Below are positions 29,538 through 35,164 of a stretch of 35,237 nt of DNA, in pieces. How positions within the stretch are numbered: the stretch's first letter is position 1; every line of letters begins with the position of its first letter. This DNA comes from Bacteroidales bacterium (lineage in GTDB: Bacteria; Bacteroidota; Bacteroidia; Bacteroidales; JAAYJT01). Made by a program: the position numbers and the translations under genes. Under the pieces are notes generated by a model. The model saw only the letters and a list, made by a program, of their open reading frames with translations. It was not told where the DNA came from and did not search any database. The DNA lies in contig JAAYJT010000013.1 of the NCBI GenBank assembly GCA_012522795.1, positions 1 to 35,237 of the forward strand, read 5' to 3'.

Positions 29538-30230
29538 TCAGCCATTCTTATTAATTGATTCGAGCATAGACTGATTAAGGATTTCAAGATAATTACCATT
29601 AAGTGAGATAATTTCTTCGTCTTTAAACTTTTTCAATACCCGAATAGCACTTTCCTTTGTCATTCCTGAAAGATCAGCCAGTTCCTGCCGCGAAATGGTT
29701 AGTTCGAAAGCCTTATTATTATAAACTGACGAAGCCAGATATAAAATTGTATCAGCCATTCGTCCATAAATATGTTTTTGTGTCAAACCCGATATTTTAT
29801 GAAAAAGGTTAACAGTTTGCAAACTAGCTTTACGAAGAAATTCAGATGCAAAACTTACATTAGCTTTCATCAGCTCAACTATAATATCAATATTAAAGAG
29901 GCAGGCTGTGGTTTCTTCGACCGCAACGGCAGAGTAATGATGGCGCTGGTCAACGAAAGCTCCAGGCATTAAAAGATAATTACTTGGTCTGGTTAAGCTG
30001 AAAATCAAATCATTACTATTTTCATGTTCTATATATGATTTAACTAGTCCTGAAGTAATGCAAACTAAACTATGACAAGGTGTTCCTTGTTTGAAAATAA
30101 CTTCGCCTGGCTTATAATAAATACTAACCTTCTCGCAATCAATGCGCTGAAGCTGATCATCATTTAAAGTATTAAAAATATCAGAGCGGCTCCTACAAGC
30201 AAAGCAGTTGGTTTTTAAGAGCTTTCCCAT
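29538..30230 (-). CDS. Crp/Fnr family transcriptional regulator
   Basis: A 230-residue regulator with an N-terminal cyclic-nucleotide-binding-type beta-roll (about 25-125), a dimerisation helix (about 127-150) and a winged helix-turn-helix (about 175-220, ISRQELADLSGMTKESAIRVL). E193 and R197 in the recognition helix correspond to the FNR and CRP residues that read the TGA half-site; the FNR Ser position is Ile. Cysteines are C9, C12, C32, C52, C57 and C110. C9-x2-C12 near the N terminus and C110 (EETTAC) line up well with FNR C20, C23 and C122, but the third N-terminal FNR Cys is missing, so an Fe-S sensor role is possible but unproven. The divergent cytochrome operon and an exact FNR-type palindrome upstream point to control of respiration. 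Confidence 0.93.
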   Translation of the reverse strand: MGKLLKTNCFACRSRSDIFNTLNDDQLQRIDCEKVSIYYKPGEVIFKQGTPCHSLVCITSGLVKSYIEHENSNDLIFSLTRPSNYLLMPGAFVDQRHHYSAVAVEETTACLFNIDIIVELMKANVSFASEFLRKASLQTVNLFHKISGLTQKHIYGRMADTILYLASSVYNNKAFELTISRQELADLSGMTKESAIRVLKKFKDEEIISLNGNYLEILNQSMLESINKNG

Positions 30231-30291
30231 TTGTAAAGATATTTTGAGAATATCACTGTAATATAAATAAAAAAATGAGCTATATGTTCAA

Positions 30292-30315
30292 TTACATTGA
30301 TTCAGATCAATGTAA
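30292..30315. promoter_or_regulatory. Perfect FNR-type operator between regulator and cytochrome operon
   Basis: TTACATTGAT (30292-30301), spacer TCAG, then ATCAATGTAA (30306-30315): both arms are exact reverse complements over 10 bp. The core TTGAT-N4-ATCAA is the full FNR consensus. It lies 61 bases upstream of the regulator ATG and 103 bases upstream of the first cytochrome gene ATG, in the divergent promoter region. The Crp/Fnr protein encoded alongside is the likely ligand, controlling itself and the operon. Confidence 0.88.
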
Positions 30316-30386
30316 AACACGAAAATATCAATAAAAACTCTAATTACAATCAACAAGCATATAAAATATCATATCCAAATATTTAT

Positions 30387-30394
30387 TTATTTTG
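30387..30394 (+). promoter_or_regulatory. Possible -7 element of the cytochrome operon
   Basis: TTATTTTG has one mismatch to TAnnTTTG and lies 24 bases before the chosen ATG. If used, the FNR-type site would be centred near -97; a site closer to the palindrome is not evident. Confidence 0.3.
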
Positions 30395-30418
30395 CTACAT
30401 GGTAAAATAAAGCTTGAT

Positions 30419-30808
30419 ATGGATTATCCAACATCTGCCCGAAATTTTCTGATCTATGCCTTCACATTAGTTTTACTAATGTTTCTGCCTTCCTGTCAAT
30501 ACGAGTTTATTGAAGAAGACGCACCCGACCCGAATAAAGAATATTCATTTAAAGATGATATTCTTCCAATTTTTGAAGCAAAGAGTTGTACAAGCTGTCA
30601 CCGTTCCGGCTCTACCTATCCTGATCTCACACCTACCAATGCGTATAATTCAATTGTACCCAATCTGGTTAACCTTTCAAATCCGGAATCAAGTAAAATA
30701 TATTCCTATCCCCATCCGGCAACAACTACACATGGGTTCCAGAAATATTCAACGGCTCAGGCAAATATAATTCTTGAATGGATAAAACAGGGTGCAATAA
30801 ATAATTAA
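30419..30808 (+). CDS. Monoheme c-type cytochrome lipoprotein
   Basis: A 129-residue predicted lipoprotein. The signal peptide has a hydrophobic core (about 10-23) and lipobox LPSC with C26 as the lipid-bearing residue. A short acidic linker leads to one heme motif, CTSCH (57-61), within DDILPIFEAKSCTSCHRSG, the pattern of small c-type cytochrome domains found in environmental bacteria. The C-terminal ILEWIKQGA is a typical cytochrome c closing helix. No Met ligand is obvious after the heme, so the sixth ligand is uncertain. The frame extends to a TTG at 30392, but the ATG at 30419 gives a normal lipoprotein signal. It is the first gene of the operon, 18 bases before the DUF5777 gene. Confidence 0.88.
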   Translation: MDYPTSARNFLIYAFTLVLLMFLPSCQYEFIEEDAPDPNKEYSFKDDILPIFEAKSCTSCHRSGSTYPDLTPTNAYNSIVPNLVNLSNPESSKIYSYPHPATTTHGFQKYSTAQANIILEWIKQGAINN

Positions 30809-30826
30809 CTTCAACGAAACAAATAC

Positions 30827-31690
30827 ATGAAAAGGATACTACTCATCGTTATAGCTCTTATTGGTGTACTCAGCCTTATGGCTCAGGAAGAACCCACCAA
30901 AGACCGTCCAGTAAGGGCACCTTTTAATAGTGGTATATTAATTGATAATCAAACAAGTGTTATTCCTGCTGATAAAACACTTGAATTTCAAATCCAACAT
31001 AAATTTGGCAAGATTGATAATGGCTTTTCTGATCTTTTTGGTCTTTATGCTCCAGGTGCCAACATTCGTCTTGCTTTAAACTATGTTCTAATAAAGAATT
31101 TACAAATTGGATATGGGCTTAGCAGAATTAGGATGTATAGTGATTTTTCAATAAAATACACCATTCATGAACAAACAAGGAGAAATACATTTCCTGTAGC
31201 TGTTGCTGTTTTTGCGAATATGGCTGTTGATGGCCGAAACAAAAGTGATTTTGGCAATAACTATAAATTCGGCAACAGATACTCATATTTCTCACAACTG
31301 ATCGTTGGTCGCCGTTTTAACGACTGGTTATCAGTACAAGCAAATGCAAGTTTTACCCATTACAATATTACTGAACCCGGAATAGATCACGATAAAGTTT
31401 CAGTTGGCTTTAATGGCAGGATAAATTTTTCATCTCAGTCGTCAATTCTTTTTCAGTACGATATTCCGCTTAAAATCAAGAGTATCACTGAGCACCGTGA
31501 ATGGACGAACCCGGCTAAGCCAAATCTTGGTATAGGCTGGGAAATAAGAACTAGCACCCATGCGTTTCATATCTACCTTTCATCAACTGATGGCATGATC
31601 CCACAGCATAATACAGTATATAATACTAACGACTGGACTAAAGGTGATATGATGTTTGGATTCTCAATAGTAAGATTTTGGAATTTTTAA
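30827..31690 (+). CDS. DUF5777 family beta-barrel protein
   Basis: A 287-residue protein with a cleavable signal peptide (hydrophobic residues 4-18, likely cut after SLMA). It then has alternating amphipathic strands and a C-terminal strand ending in aromatic residues (MMFGFSIVRFWNF), the sorting signal of outer-membrane barrels. Blocks such as LEFQIQHKFGKI, LFGLYAPGANIRLALNY and NLQIGYGLSRI are what I recognise as DUF5777. Members are found in Bacteroidota, often beside c-type cytochromes. The function is unknown; here it could be a channel or a scaffold that lets lipoprotein cytochromes reach the cell surface, which is inference from position only. Confidence 0.85.
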   Translation: MKRILLIVIALIGVLSLMAQEEPTKDRPVRAPFNSGILIDNQTSVIPADKTLEFQIQHKFGKIDNGFSDLFGLYAPGANIRLALNYVLIKNLQIGYGLSRIRMYSDFSIKYTIHEQTRRNTFPVAVAVFANMAVDGRNKSDFGNNYKFGNRYSYFSQLIVGRRFNDWLSVQANASFTHYNITEPGIDHDKVSVGFNGRINFSSQSSILFQYDIPLKIKSITEHREWTNPAKPNLGIGWEIRTSTHAFHIYLSSTDGMIPQHNTVYNTNDWTKGDMMFGFSIVRFWNF

Positions 31691-31726: not shown

Positions 31727-32143
31727 ATGAAAAGAAAGATTTTTTTCCGTTTGATGTTAGCAGTAGCAGCTTTTGCTATGATAGCTTTTGTAGTTCCACA
31801 AGAACAAAAAAAGGGTGGTCCATGGGAGATCCCAAAAGAATACAAAGAAAAGAAAAACCCGTTTAAAGATGATGCCTCTCTTGTAAAATTAGGAAGGACC
31901 ATTTACAACAAGCATTGTCGTTCATGCCACGGAAACGCCGGCCTTGGTGATGGAGTAATGGCCAAGAATCAAAAAACATTTCCGGGGGATTTTTCAAGTG
32001 CTGAATTTCACAAATATACTGACGGTGAATTATATTTTATGTCAATTATAGGTCGTGATGAAATGCCAAATTTTGAAAAAAAGATCACAGATGAAGAAGA
32101 AAGATGGGCAGTGATAAACTACATCCGAACTATGAAAAAATAA
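31727..32143 (+). CDS. Monoheme cytochrome c (class I)
   Basis: A 138-residue periplasmic cytochrome with an N-terminal hydrophobic segment (about 8-24), which is either a signal peptide or an uncleaved anchor. The class I cytochrome domain starts near residue 50: LGRTIYNKHCRSCHG with the heme motif C64, C67, H68, then GLGDG, and M113 in RDEMPNF as probable sixth ligand. A final helix is WAVINYIRTMKK. This is a small electron shuttle of the kind that passes electrons between membrane and terminal oxidoreductases. It follows the barrel gene by 36 bases. Confidence 0.93.
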   Translation: MKRKIFFRLMLAVAAFAMIAFVVPQEQKKGGPWEIPKEYKEKKNPFKDDASLVKLGRTIYNKHCRSCHGNAGLGDGVMAKNQKTFPGDFSSAEFHKYTDGELYFMSIIGRDEMPNFEKKITDEEERWAVINYIRTMKK

Positions 32144-32188: not shown

Positions 32189-33196
32189 ATGGATCTGACG
32201 AAGTTTGTAAAGAAAATAAGGAAAACAGGGGCAAGATGGCTTTTACTTGTCTTGCCTTTGTTTATTGCATGGCTTATGTCAGGTGCAGATGTTAGCTTGG
32301 ATCCTAAAGTAGAATTCGACGAGGAAACATTACAATGCCTTGAATGTCATGGTGCTATGCGTTATACCCTTGTTGACCCTGAAACCGGAGATACCGTTTC
32401 AATGAAAATGTATGAAGAACTCAGAATTGACCCTAATGTATATGCAAAAGCAACCCATGGAAGCTTTTCCTGTATTGACTGTCACTCACCTGATTTTGAA
32501 ACTCATCCGCACCCGGTTTCAGTAAAGTTCGAGCCCAATTTTGAATGTATTGACTGCCATGGTCCTGACGAGAAATATGCAGATTTCAACTTTGAAACCA
32601 TTGAAGAAGAATATTCAATAAGTGTTCATGGCAATCATTATATTGAAAACTTCAGCTGCTGGAGCTGCCATAATCCTCATACATATAAAAATACAGCCAG
32701 ACAAAGTGAAAGTATCACCGAAATAGTTGCATATAACAACTCAATGTGTTTAGGATGCCATGGTGATATTAGTCATTATGAAGTACTTATTGAAAGACAG
32801 CTTACAAATATGCTTTCAAAACATGACTGGCTTCCAAACCAAAGTCTCCATTTCCGAAAAGTAAGATGTATTGATTGTCATGCTGCTGTTCACGAGGATA
32901 TACTGGTTGCCCATCAGGTGTTACCTGCAAATCAGGCAGTAAGAAATTGTGTTGATTGTCATTCAACAAATTCTATCCTCATGGGCTCGCTATATAAACA
33001 TCAGGTAGTGGAGAAAAGAAGTAAATCTGGATTTTTTAATGCAGCAATCACAAATCAGGCATATATTATAGGAGCAAACAGAAATTATTATTTCAATGTA
33101 TTCAGTGTAGTTATTTTCGGTCTTGTACTGGCTGCAATTGCTGTTCATGCTACACTCAGGTATATAAGTTACAGGAGGCAACATGGCAAAAAGTAA
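32189..33196 (+). CDS. Heptaheme membrane-bound c-type cytochrome
   Basis: A 335-residue cytochrome with seven CxxCH motifs (heme His at 54, 99, 124, 161, 191, 231 and 258), framed by two hydrophobic segments at 15-32 and about 302-322. The N-terminal one may be an anchor; the C-terminal one, followed by basic RYISYRRQHGKK, is a clear membrane anchor, placing the hemes in the periplasm. Several extra His residues (90, 106, 108, 147, 150, 164, 196, 212) can serve as distal ligands. It overlaps the next gene, a b-type cytochrome, by 14 bases, so the two likely form one complex. Seven c hemes with a partner b cytochrome recall CbcBA of Geobacter, a menaquinol oxidase feeding extracellular electron transfer. 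Confidence 0.9.
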   Translation: MDLTKFVKKIRKTGARWLLLVLPLFIAWLMSGADVSLDPKVEFDEETLQCLECHGAMRYTLVDPETGDTVSMKMYEELRIDPNVYAKATHGSFSCIDCHSPDFETHPHPVSVKFEPNFECIDCHGPDEKYADFNFETIEEEYSISVHGNHYIENFSCWSCHNPHTYKNTARQSESITEIVAYNNSMCLGCHGDISHYEVLIERQLTNMLSKHDWLPNQSLHFRKVRCIDCHAAVHEDILVAHQVLPANQAVRNCVDCHSTNSILMGSLYKHQVVEKRSKSGFFNAAITNQAYIIGANRNYYFNVFSVVIFGLVLAAIAVHATLRYISYRRQHGKK

Positions 33197-33842
33197 AAAA
33201 CTATACTTGTATCCTCTCTGGCTAAGGATATGGCATCATGTTAATGCTATACTTATGATTTTCCTGATTGCTACAGGAATAAGTATGCAATATTCAGATC
33301 CGGCATACCCGCTTATAAGATTTGATATTGCTGTTACTGTTCATAATATTGCCGGAGTTTCGCTGACAGTATCATATTTTATATTTCTGTTAGGTGTGCT
33401 TTTTACTTCAATAGGTAGGTTTTATGTTGTTAAAACTGAAGGCTTACTGACTTCCTTTTCCAAGCAATTACGTTATTATCTGTTTGGTATTTTTAAAGGG
33501 GAACAAAGTCCTTTTAAAGTAAGTGAAAAACAAAAGTTCAATCCTGTACAGCTTATCACCTATAATCTTATTATGCACGCAATTATCCCTGTCACCTTTA
33601 TAACCGGCTGGGCACTTCTTTTTCCTGAAACAATAGTGCTCAACGTGTTTGGTTACAGCGGAATAATGCTTACAAGCCTTGTACATTCAATAGCAGGTTT
33701 TTTCATCTCTATTTTCCTGCTTATTCATCTTTACGTGATCACCATAGGGTCAAGTACAACTGCAAATTTGAAGAGTATTATTTATGGATATCACGAAGAG
33801 CACGATACTGACGATGACCAATCAGAAGAAATTAAAGAATAA
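33183..33842 (+). CDS. Cytochrome b/b6 domain protein (quinol-oxidising membrane subunit)
   Basis: A 219-residue integral membrane protein with four predicted helices (about 20-36, 50-75, 125-147, 162-188) in the style of the b-type subunit of formate dehydrogenases and Ni-Fe hydrogenases. Histidines suited to ligate b hemes are H18 or H19 (WLRIWHHVNA), H54 (VTVHNIAG), H168 (VHSIAGFF) and H182 (LIHLYV). The motif order matches the diheme cytochrome b561/HydC fold. The C terminus is acidic and cytoplasmic. Its start lies inside the end of the heptaheme gene, strong evidence of a joint complex: it would take electrons from menaquinol and give them to the c hemes. Confidence 0.9.
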   Translation: MAKSKKLYLYPLWLRIWHHVNAILMIFLIATGISMQYSDPAYPLIRFDIAVTVHNIAGVSLTVSYFIFLLGVLFTSIGRFYVVKTEGLLTSFSKQLRYYLFGIFKGEQSPFKVSEKQKFNPVQLITYNLIMHAIIPVTFITGWALLFPETIVLNVFGYSGIMLTSLVHSIAGFFISIFLLIHLYVITIGSSTTANLKSIIYGYHEEHDTDDDQSEEIKE

Positions 33843-33886: not shown

Positions 33887-34936
33887 ATGAAAGGGAAACT
33901 AACATTTGTAACAGTAGCAACTGTCATGATTTTACTAATGACCGGAATGATAATTTCAAGTTGTACTAAAGAAGGACCTGAAGGCAAACCTGGACTCGAT
34001 GGGATAGATGGCAAAGATGGAGCTGAAAGCTGTAGTTCATGCCATAATTTTTCTGAAATATTACTTGCAAAGATAAGTCAGTATCAAAATTCAGTTCATG
34101 CTAAAGGAGCTACTTTAGACCATAATAATCAAGGCTGCGGGCACTGTCATACAAGTATGGGGTTCAGAAATTACTTAACTGACGGTACAATTGCCACTGT
34201 TAATAATCCCACACCAATAAACTGCCGTACTTGCCATCCTATTCACGAATCGTACACACTTAATGATTATGGACTTAGAACCAGTGTACCGGTAAACTTG
34301 TTATTGGGTGAAGGTGAATATGATTATGACAATTCAAACCTATGCGCCAACTGTCATCAGGCGCATGATCTTAATCCATATCCTGTTGCTGGTGGAGACT
34401 CTTTGTCAATTGCCAGTAAATATTATGGTCCTCACCATGCTCCTCATGTTAATATGCTTATTGGTAAAGGACCTTATCAGATTCCCGGAAGTATGGAATA
34501 TTTAAATTCGCCACATACCATAGTTGTTAAAAGTGGTTGTGTTACATGCCATATGGGCGATGCTACCGGAAACTGGGCTGGAGGTCATCAGATGAATATT
34601 GAATACAGGAACAGCTATGGAGCTATTGCATACCAATATACCGGCTGCTTAAGTTCAGGATGCCACGAAACAACAGCAGAGGTAACAGCAAAAATTAATC
34701 CTAATCGTGCAGAAATTCAGGGACTTCTGTCAGAATTAAAAACAAAATTATTGGATAAAGATTTAATGGATCCTGACGGATATATCAGACCCAATAAGAA
34801 AATGAGTCAGATGGACCTTGCATGCTTCATTAATTATAAATTTGTTTCTGAAGATAACAGTTACGGAGCACATAATTACCGATTTACTAAAGCACTGCTG
34901 GTTAATACATTAGAATATATTAATCCTCCGAGATAA
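33887..34936 (+). CDS. Hexaheme lipoprotein cytochrome with collagen-like stalk
   Basis: A 349-residue predicted lipoprotein: signal peptide with hydrophobic core (7-24) and lipobox SSC with C26. Residues 30-47 are six exact Gly-X-Y triplets (GPEGKPGLDGIDGKDGAE), a collagen-like stalk directly after the lipid anchor. Heme sites follow: CSSCH (49-53), CGHCH (84-88), CRTCH (113-117), CANCH (153-157), CVTCH (218-222), and one unusual C-x4-CH site CLSSGCH (254-260). Many free His (for example 71, 79, 120, 160, 183, 184, 187, 210, 234) may be distal ligands. The last 80 residues have no hemes. It is probably the outer-membrane or surface end of the electron path, but could also be a reductase for an unknown substrate. 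Confidence 0.88.
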   Translation: MKGKLTFVTVATVMILLMTGMIISSCTKEGPEGKPGLDGIDGKDGAESCSSCHNFSEILLAKISQYQNSVHAKGATLDHNNQGCGHCHTSMGFRNYLTDGTIATVNNPTPINCRTCHPIHESYTLNDYGLRTSVPVNLLLGEGEYDYDNSNLCANCHQAHDLNPYPVAGGDSLSIASKYYGPHHAPHVNMLIGKGPYQIPGSMEYLNSPHTIVVKSGCVTCHMGDATGNWAGGHQMNIEYRNSYGAIAYQYTGCLSSGCHETTAEVTAKINPNRAEIQGLLSELKTKLLDKDLMDPDGYIRPNKKMSQMDLACFINYKFVSEDNSYGAHNYRFTKALLVNTLEYINPPR

Positions 34937-35090: not shown

Positions 35091-35164
35091 TCCTCCTTAG
35101 CTCAGTTGGTTAGAGCATCTGACTGTTAATCAGAGGGTCGCTGGTTCAAGTCCAGCAGGGGGAG
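35091..35164 (+). tRNA. tRNA-Asn (anticodon GTT)
   Basis: A 74-base tRNA with full cloverleaf: acceptor TCCTCCT (35091-35097) pairs with AGGGGGA (35157-35163) with one T-G wobble; D arm GCTC..GAGC; anticodon stem TCTGA/TCAGA around loop CTGTTAA with anticodon GTT at 35125-35127; T arm GCTGG-TTCAAGT-CCAGC. The discriminator base is G. CCA is not fully encoded (CAA follows), so it must be added by the nucleotidyltransferase. It has its own promoter and terminator. Confidence 0.97.

Follow-up and report, generated by a model that had tools for sequence, protein, structure and literature searches.

A conserved FNR-type palindrome at fixed distance from a Bacteroidota -7 box, between a Crp/Fnr regulator gene and a putative electron-transfer operon

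The 35,237-nucleotide stretch of Bacteroidales DNA analysed here (the window) carries at 30292-30315 a palindrome, TTACATTGAT-TCAG-ATCAATGTAA, which is assigned to neither strand and which, on well-supported comparative grounds, appears to be a genuine and conserved FNR-type operator of the local regulator, to which we infer that the regulator binds. Read directly from the window, the palindrome consists of two 10-bp arms that are exact complements, separated by a 4-bp spacer, and it contains the core TTGAT-N4-ATCAA at 30297-30310, confirming the perfect palindrome with an FNR core claimed in the original prediction. It is the main operator and the outermost of an array, and it lies between the start of a Crp/Fnr regulator gene (30230, minus strand) on one side and a multiheme cytochrome operon on the other. 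A palindrome conserved across many uncultured Bacteroidota and held at a fixed distance from the operon promoter points to a dedicated regulator for a possible respiratory chain reaching the cell surface. We consider it reasonably probable that, from the palindrome array, a redox regulator resembling FNR activates a putative extracellular electron transfer (EET) operon and that it also controls itself; activation, a redox signal and EET are our best guesses, with certainty falling in that order.

Of 119 relatives, 91 have a homolog by protein search at E 1e-25 or better; genome contigs were also scanned, and the best 80 of 354 relatives, mostly Bacteroidales or Bacteroidetes MAGs, were used. 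Among these best 80, six operon proteins were matched in 41 loci, five in 17, four in 4, three in 3, one in 5 and none in 10, several loci being short or cut. The operon is divergent from the regulator at 40 loci and downstream in the same direction at 33, and 16 loci have none near. The exact core is present in 22 of 73 homologous operon fronts, compared with a mean of 0.15 in dinucleotide-shuffled sequences, and the form TTGAY-N4-RTCAA in 44 of 73 (0.6 shuffled); within 350 bp upstream of the regulator, the corresponding figures are 24 of 89 (0.15) and 32 of 89 (0.3). The counts of operon fronts, offsets and boxes omit L042, L043, L045, L046 and L047, which are duplicates of L104, L061, L124, L127 and L128. 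A site score of at least 8 is by itself weak evidence, being reached in 71 of 73 operon fronts versus 37.45 in shuffles. Two sites are present at many co-directional loci, ahead of the regulator and between the regulator and the operon, and the sites therefore follow both promoters. TTGAT-N4-ATCAA operators of the FNR type thus stand at own and target promoters across the window and its relatives, and the proposal that such an operator separates a Crp/Fnr gene from a divergent multiheme operon gains support from its retention in relatives. In nine close relatives (L055-L059, L062-L064 and L066), strict TTGA-N6-TCAA was not found and only a weaker WTGAY-N4-RTCAY-like block is present.

RNA transcribed from the palindrome could form a 10-bp stem with a 4-base loop, but that the palindrome is a hairpin or terminator, or arose by chance, is highly improbable. 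Divergent genes need no terminator at this place, and we rejected the terminator reading on finding nothing terminator-like in 29800-31000 and no covariation of the outer arms in relatives. The spacing of the half-sites is also strict, with N4 in 17 of 68 loci and N3, N5, N6 and N7 in none; N2 (5 loci) and N8 (2 loci) are perhaps overlapping repeats. These 68 loci are what is left of 80 after removal of 10 in which no ATG was found and 2 with less than 150 bp upstream. Counting outward from the exact core in the 22 operon fronts that have one, pairs 1 to 5 show complementarity in 13, 6, 4, 9 and 9 cases. Conservation in relatives does not extend to these extra pairs; the core is therefore the functional unit, and the added arm length in the window is probably incidental. 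Across the window, Rfam gave no RNA match other than a tRNA at 35091-35164.

The promoter that the operator serves was located by alignment of relatives, which placed a -7 box, TTATTTTG, at 30387-30394 on the plus strand, in agreement with the Bacteroidota consensus T[A/T]nnTTTG. The ORF finder chose the TTG at 30392, but this falls inside the box, and the first start codon of the operon is therefore most likely ATG 30419, 25 nt after the G. All 52 boxes found through their TTTG begin with T followed by A or T, the window having TT rather than TA; for 21 of 73 operon fronts, an in-phase -7 box was not obtained. A scan for E. coli-type sigma70 promoters was uninformative, with 5 promoter-like sites versus 5.1 in shuffles, and the Bacteroidota -7 promoter found here differs from the -35/-10 promoters of E. 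coli FNR. According to PMC7366714, no -33 element could be recognised in F. johnsoniae, and PMC9723704 places the box at -12 to -5 in a flavobacterial map of transcription starts. With the G of the box at -5, transcription in the window would start near 30399, 20 nt before ATG 30419, and the centres of the three array sites described below would fall near -95, -74 and -52. The original prediction had mentioned a weak plus-strand -7 element that would put the palindrome at about -97: the element is conserved in relatives, the adjective did not hold, and the site centre is predicted near -95.

The centre of the palindrome lies 90.5 bp from the G of the -7 box, and two further positions follow on its operon side, likewise without a strand: CACGAAAATATCAA at 30318-30331, whose centre is 69.5 bp from the G, and CTAATTACAATCAA at 30340-30353, at 47.5 bp. 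From the outermost inward, the sites score 10/10, 5/10 and 8/10, the second having only its right half-site, ATCAA (30327-30331). When the fronts of the window and the four closest loci are aligned, the core is the most conserved block, followed by a second ATCAAT 21 bp on and by the conserved TTTG; the distance from site centre to G is 90.5 bp in the window, L041 and L104 and 91.5 bp in L061. Over 71 scorable loci, the best site stands 90.5 bp from TTTG in 18, 91.5 in 12 and 89.5 in 5, so that 35 of 71 fall at 89.5-91.5 with 0.68 expected per bin. Further sets occur at 69.5 (7 loci) and 111.5-112.5 (8 loci), and an offset of 106.5 (12 loci) was set aside as stemming from similar co-directional sequences. 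Anchoring on T[A/T]nnTTTG only, the top three of about 130 offsets are 91.5, 69.5 and 47.5 in divergent loci and 90.5, 69.5 and 47.5 in co-directional ones. Anchors placed on the reversed element gave no such set of offsets, and random anchors reached the observed value in 0 of 300 trials in each arrangement. Among 20 non-redundant representatives (regulator identity below 65%; L041, L048, L051, L052 and L053 omitted), 10 are in phase and 10 are out of phase. Judged from these alignments, the site keeps phase with a conserved Bacteroidota -7 box in both arrangements; this, and the array itself, which had gone unnoticed in the original prediction, are new here.

We propose that a dimer of the adjacent FNR-like regulator would bind TTGAT-N4-ATCAA as its main operator, that weaker dimer sites would continue toward the operon promoter in steps of about 21-22 bp, or two helical turns, and that from this upstream array (about -95, -74 and -52) the regulator would most likely activate the cytochrome operon. 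Tandem phased sites can repress too, and a site at the regulator's own promoter (offset 22.5) does overlap the core promoter, but the enriched operon offsets of 47.5, 69.5 and 90.5 place the sites upstream of the core promoter rather than on top of it; that the regulator represses the operon, the array forming a nucleoprotein block, is in our estimation rather unlikely. Before the regulator in co-directional loci, the top offsets are 22.5, 66.5 and 44.5, about 22 bp apart, and the site at 22.5 sits over the regulator's core promoter, which suggests negative autoregulation in these loci: bound about 22.5 bp from the regulator's -7 box, the protein would block RNA polymerase. Divergent loci show mixed offsets on the regulator side, and in the window a regulator-side -7 box was sought and not found, which leaves the original estimate of roughly -45 for the regulator provisional.

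How far the regulator reaches was judged from a scan of the genome (G000; 2,879,278 bases, or 2.88 Mb, in 100 contigs). The exact core has 8 copies, versus 2 for a control with the reversed pattern; seven lie elsewhere than at the palindrome, 5 inside ORFs and 2 intergenic, and the only other copy in the window (20425) is inside an ORF. The longer form ACATTGAT-N4-ATCAATGT is matched perfectly only at the window copy, the next best having 2 mismatches. TTGAY-N4-RTCAA occurs at 20 sites (control, 9), of which 14 are inside ORFs and 6, including that of the window, are intergenic. The five other intergenic sites have no TTTG at 47.5, 69.5, 89.5-91.5 or 111.5-112.5; the one at C12:38707 has a TTTG at 113.5 on the minus strand. 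With 14 of 20 sites inside ORFs and no TTTG at array offsets for the other intergenic ones, a global regulon was rejected. The phased pattern TTGAT-N4-ATCAA-N79-81-TTTG is matched once per genome, at the operon, in G000, G001, G002 and G007. It is matched in 54 of 99 genomes, the control in fewer; many relatives also have matches elsewhere, many of which may be due to chance. A phased pattern occurring once in the genome, at this operon, fits the self-contained switch suggested originally, and such a local, single-copy phased target in this genome is unlike the large regulon of E. coli FNR. The genome encodes two further cNMP-binding regulators, one of which, on contig C25, keeps the CxxC, the equivalent of C110 and the KESA helix of the adjacent regulator, and either could in principle be the main reader of the site. 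We regard this as distinctly unlikely, given that site and adjacent regulator gene occur together whichever of the two arrangements is present and that a phased pattern found once in the genome fits a local regulator. Contig C25 also has an exact TTGAT-N4-ATCAA, at C25:41235, in the gap after an ORF that we take to resemble a transposase fragment.

The adjacent regulator (29538-30230, minus strand) is a protein of 230 aa with a cNMP-binding-like beta-roll (PF00027) and a Crp-type HTH (PF13545), both above cut-off; the curated Fnr model PRK11161 gave 67.6 bits, below its cut-off of 228. Like E. coli FNR, it has the Crp/Fnr fold, the core TTGAT-N4-ATCAA as its presumed site, E and R in the recognition helix and cysteines at the positions of C20, C23 and C122. 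The helix reads K192 E193 S194 A195 I196 R197, in which the near-invariant E193 and R197 align with FNR E209 and R213. Unlike in FNR, I196 replaces S212 and K192 replaces V208, leaving the FNR set E209-S212-R213 incomplete; the fit of E193 and R197 to the half-site, as originally predicted, therefore stands in so far as the helix is FNR-like, but it is not FNR-identical.

Of its cysteines, C9, C12 and C110 align with FNR C20, C23 and C122, and the equivalence of C110 to C122 is also seen in a PDB alignment with another FNR, whereas FNR C29 aligns with I18, so that the four-cysteine set is incomplete, and C57 is present. In an alignment of 134 homologs, which counts five loci twice (L006/L104, L007/L061, L009/L124, L010/L127 and L011/L128), includes the fragments L067 and L198 and uses a manually entered E. 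coli FNR reference, 113 have both the N-terminal CxxC and C110, 14 have neither, 6 have C110 alone and 1 has CxxC alone. Since CRP also has a cysteine at the C110 position, C110 alone is not diagnostic. Position 57 is a cysteine in 87 of the 113 triad-bearing homologs versus 2 of the 21 others, and C57 may substitute for the missing C29; it presumably lies, as does C110, on neighbouring strands of the beta-roll. An extra N-terminal cysteine occurs in 12 of the 26 triad proteins that lack C57 but also in 48 of the 87 that have it, so that a swap involving C57 is not proved.

As regards the signal, FNR and DNR-type proteins cannot be told apart by the DNA motif, as DNR/NnrR-type regulators use the same TTGAT-N4-ATCAA sequence. 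With the same operator and regulator, the signal could be nitric oxide or another nitrogen oxide; the regulator shares with DNR/NnrR its fold and the core motif, DNR (3dkw) is among its PDB matches (E 1.2e-12), and the hexaheme protein of the operon is related in fold to nitrite reductases. Yet the regulator differs from DNR/NnrR in the conserved N-terminal CxxC and C110, whose co-conservation suggests sensing through metal-sulfur or thiol chemistry and not through heme, and no nitrogen-oxide genes were identified in the window operon; we rate a nitrogen-oxide signal as fairly improbable. We favor a redox signal, in which a thiol or iron-sulfur sensor formed by C9, C12, C110 and probably C57 would put the regulator in its activating state when reduced or anoxic.

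The operon, on the plus strand, encodes in order a monoheme lipoprotein with one CxxCH (30419-30808; heme motif and orthologs), a DUF5777 outer-membrane beta-barrel (30827-31690; PF19089, E 4e-72), a monoheme cytochrome c (31727-32143; Pfam), a heptaheme cytochrome with seven CxxCH (32189-33196; motifs and orthologs), a cytochrome b561 (Ni_hydr_CYTB) that is likely the quinone-side partner (33183-33842; PF01292, E 5.2e-21) and a hexaheme lipoprotein with a collagen-like linker and an OcwA/NrfA-type fold (33887-34936; profile, model and Foldseek). From sequence and structural models, the operon is plausibly one for EET. Its products would make up a quinone-linked chain of cytochrome b and the heptaheme protein, together with a periplasmic cytochrome, the outer-membrane barrel and the two heme lipoproteins, one of them OcwA-like. 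MtrB-type conduits are much larger than the DUF5777 barrel, modelled with 12 strands (pLDDT 86.5; best Foldseek match, FapF), so that electron passage across the outer membrane is only hypothetical. In 33 orthologs of this barrel H58, H178 and H245 are invariant, possibly marking a metal or heme site.

The hexaheme protein has five CxxCH motifs and one CX4CH. In 26 orthologs, its lipobox C26 is invariant and T27, K28 and E29 are nearly so, suggesting a lipoprotein, with putative surface exposure; a collagen-like GxxGxxG linker follows the lipobox. Outside the heme motifs, H71, H120, H183, H210, H234 and H329 are near-invariant and would suffice as six second heme ligands. Its model (pLDDT 84.1) shows an NrfA-type heme domain with a C-terminal three-helix bundle (263-290, 308-323 and 331-345). 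OcwA (6i5b) is its best match and closest solved relative by both profile (E 1.4e-13) and fold (Foldseek E 7.9e-6; Z 15.3 over 259 residues, rmsd 4.4, the next rows having Z 13.9), and it too has three C-terminal helices; NrfA-type nitrite reductases and an S-layer undecaheme cytochrome come after it. According to PMC6703420, OcwA works at the cell surface as a terminal reductase of Thermincola potens, with nine hemes, two of them penta-coordinate, and a Gram-positive host, compared with six motifs in a lipoprotein of a Gram-negative phylum here. OcwA also reduces nitrite (PMC6703420), and a soluble acceptor is thus conceivable for the hexaheme protein.

Crp/Fnr control of respiration has, to our knowledge, been little studied in Bacteroidota. 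Searches of open-licence PMC papers yielded no description of such a pair of Crp/Fnr regulator and multiheme operon and no paper on DUF5777. Passages in PMC8258643 report a seven-gene cluster, uncharacterised and likely for EET, in an anode-enriched Bacteroidetes MAG. By description alone, that cluster resembles the operon in its multiheme cytochromes, b-type cytochrome and single outer-membrane beta-barrel; the passages on it describe no regulator or promoter, unlike what is seen in the window. We raise, tentatively and as something we doubt more than we believe, that this is an undescribed Bacteroidota EET pathway, made up of the quinone-linked heptaheme protein and cytochrome b, the 12-strand DUF5777 barrel and an OcwA-like hexaheme lipoprotein at the surface, with its own FNR-like sensor, whose cluster would use an altered set of cysteines (C9, C12, C57 and C110), and a conserved three-site, helically phased promoter array. 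The promoter grammar of site, spacing and -7 box can be used to find other targets, the cysteine set of the sensor is testable, and the conserved operon becomes a candidate for electron transfer at the cell surface of anaerobes that are abundant but uncultured.

From the last operon gene to the end of the contig there are 301 bp, and more operon genes may lie beyond; the tRNA gene at 35091-35164 stands just before that end, and the operon may continue past it or be cut. At L041, from a genome of the same genus, the next genes of the cluster encode a NapC/NirT-type cytochrome and an Fe-S protein that belongs to a recurrent family. Across 86 loci, an Fe-S protein with a twin-arginine-like leader is near 28 and an NrfD-type membrane protein near 25 (for example, L091:14162-16441), and a NapC/NirT-type cytochrome is in the neighbourhood of 13. 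A second DUF5777 gene is present at L093, L097, L101 and L108, on the far side of the regulator and about 4 kb from it.
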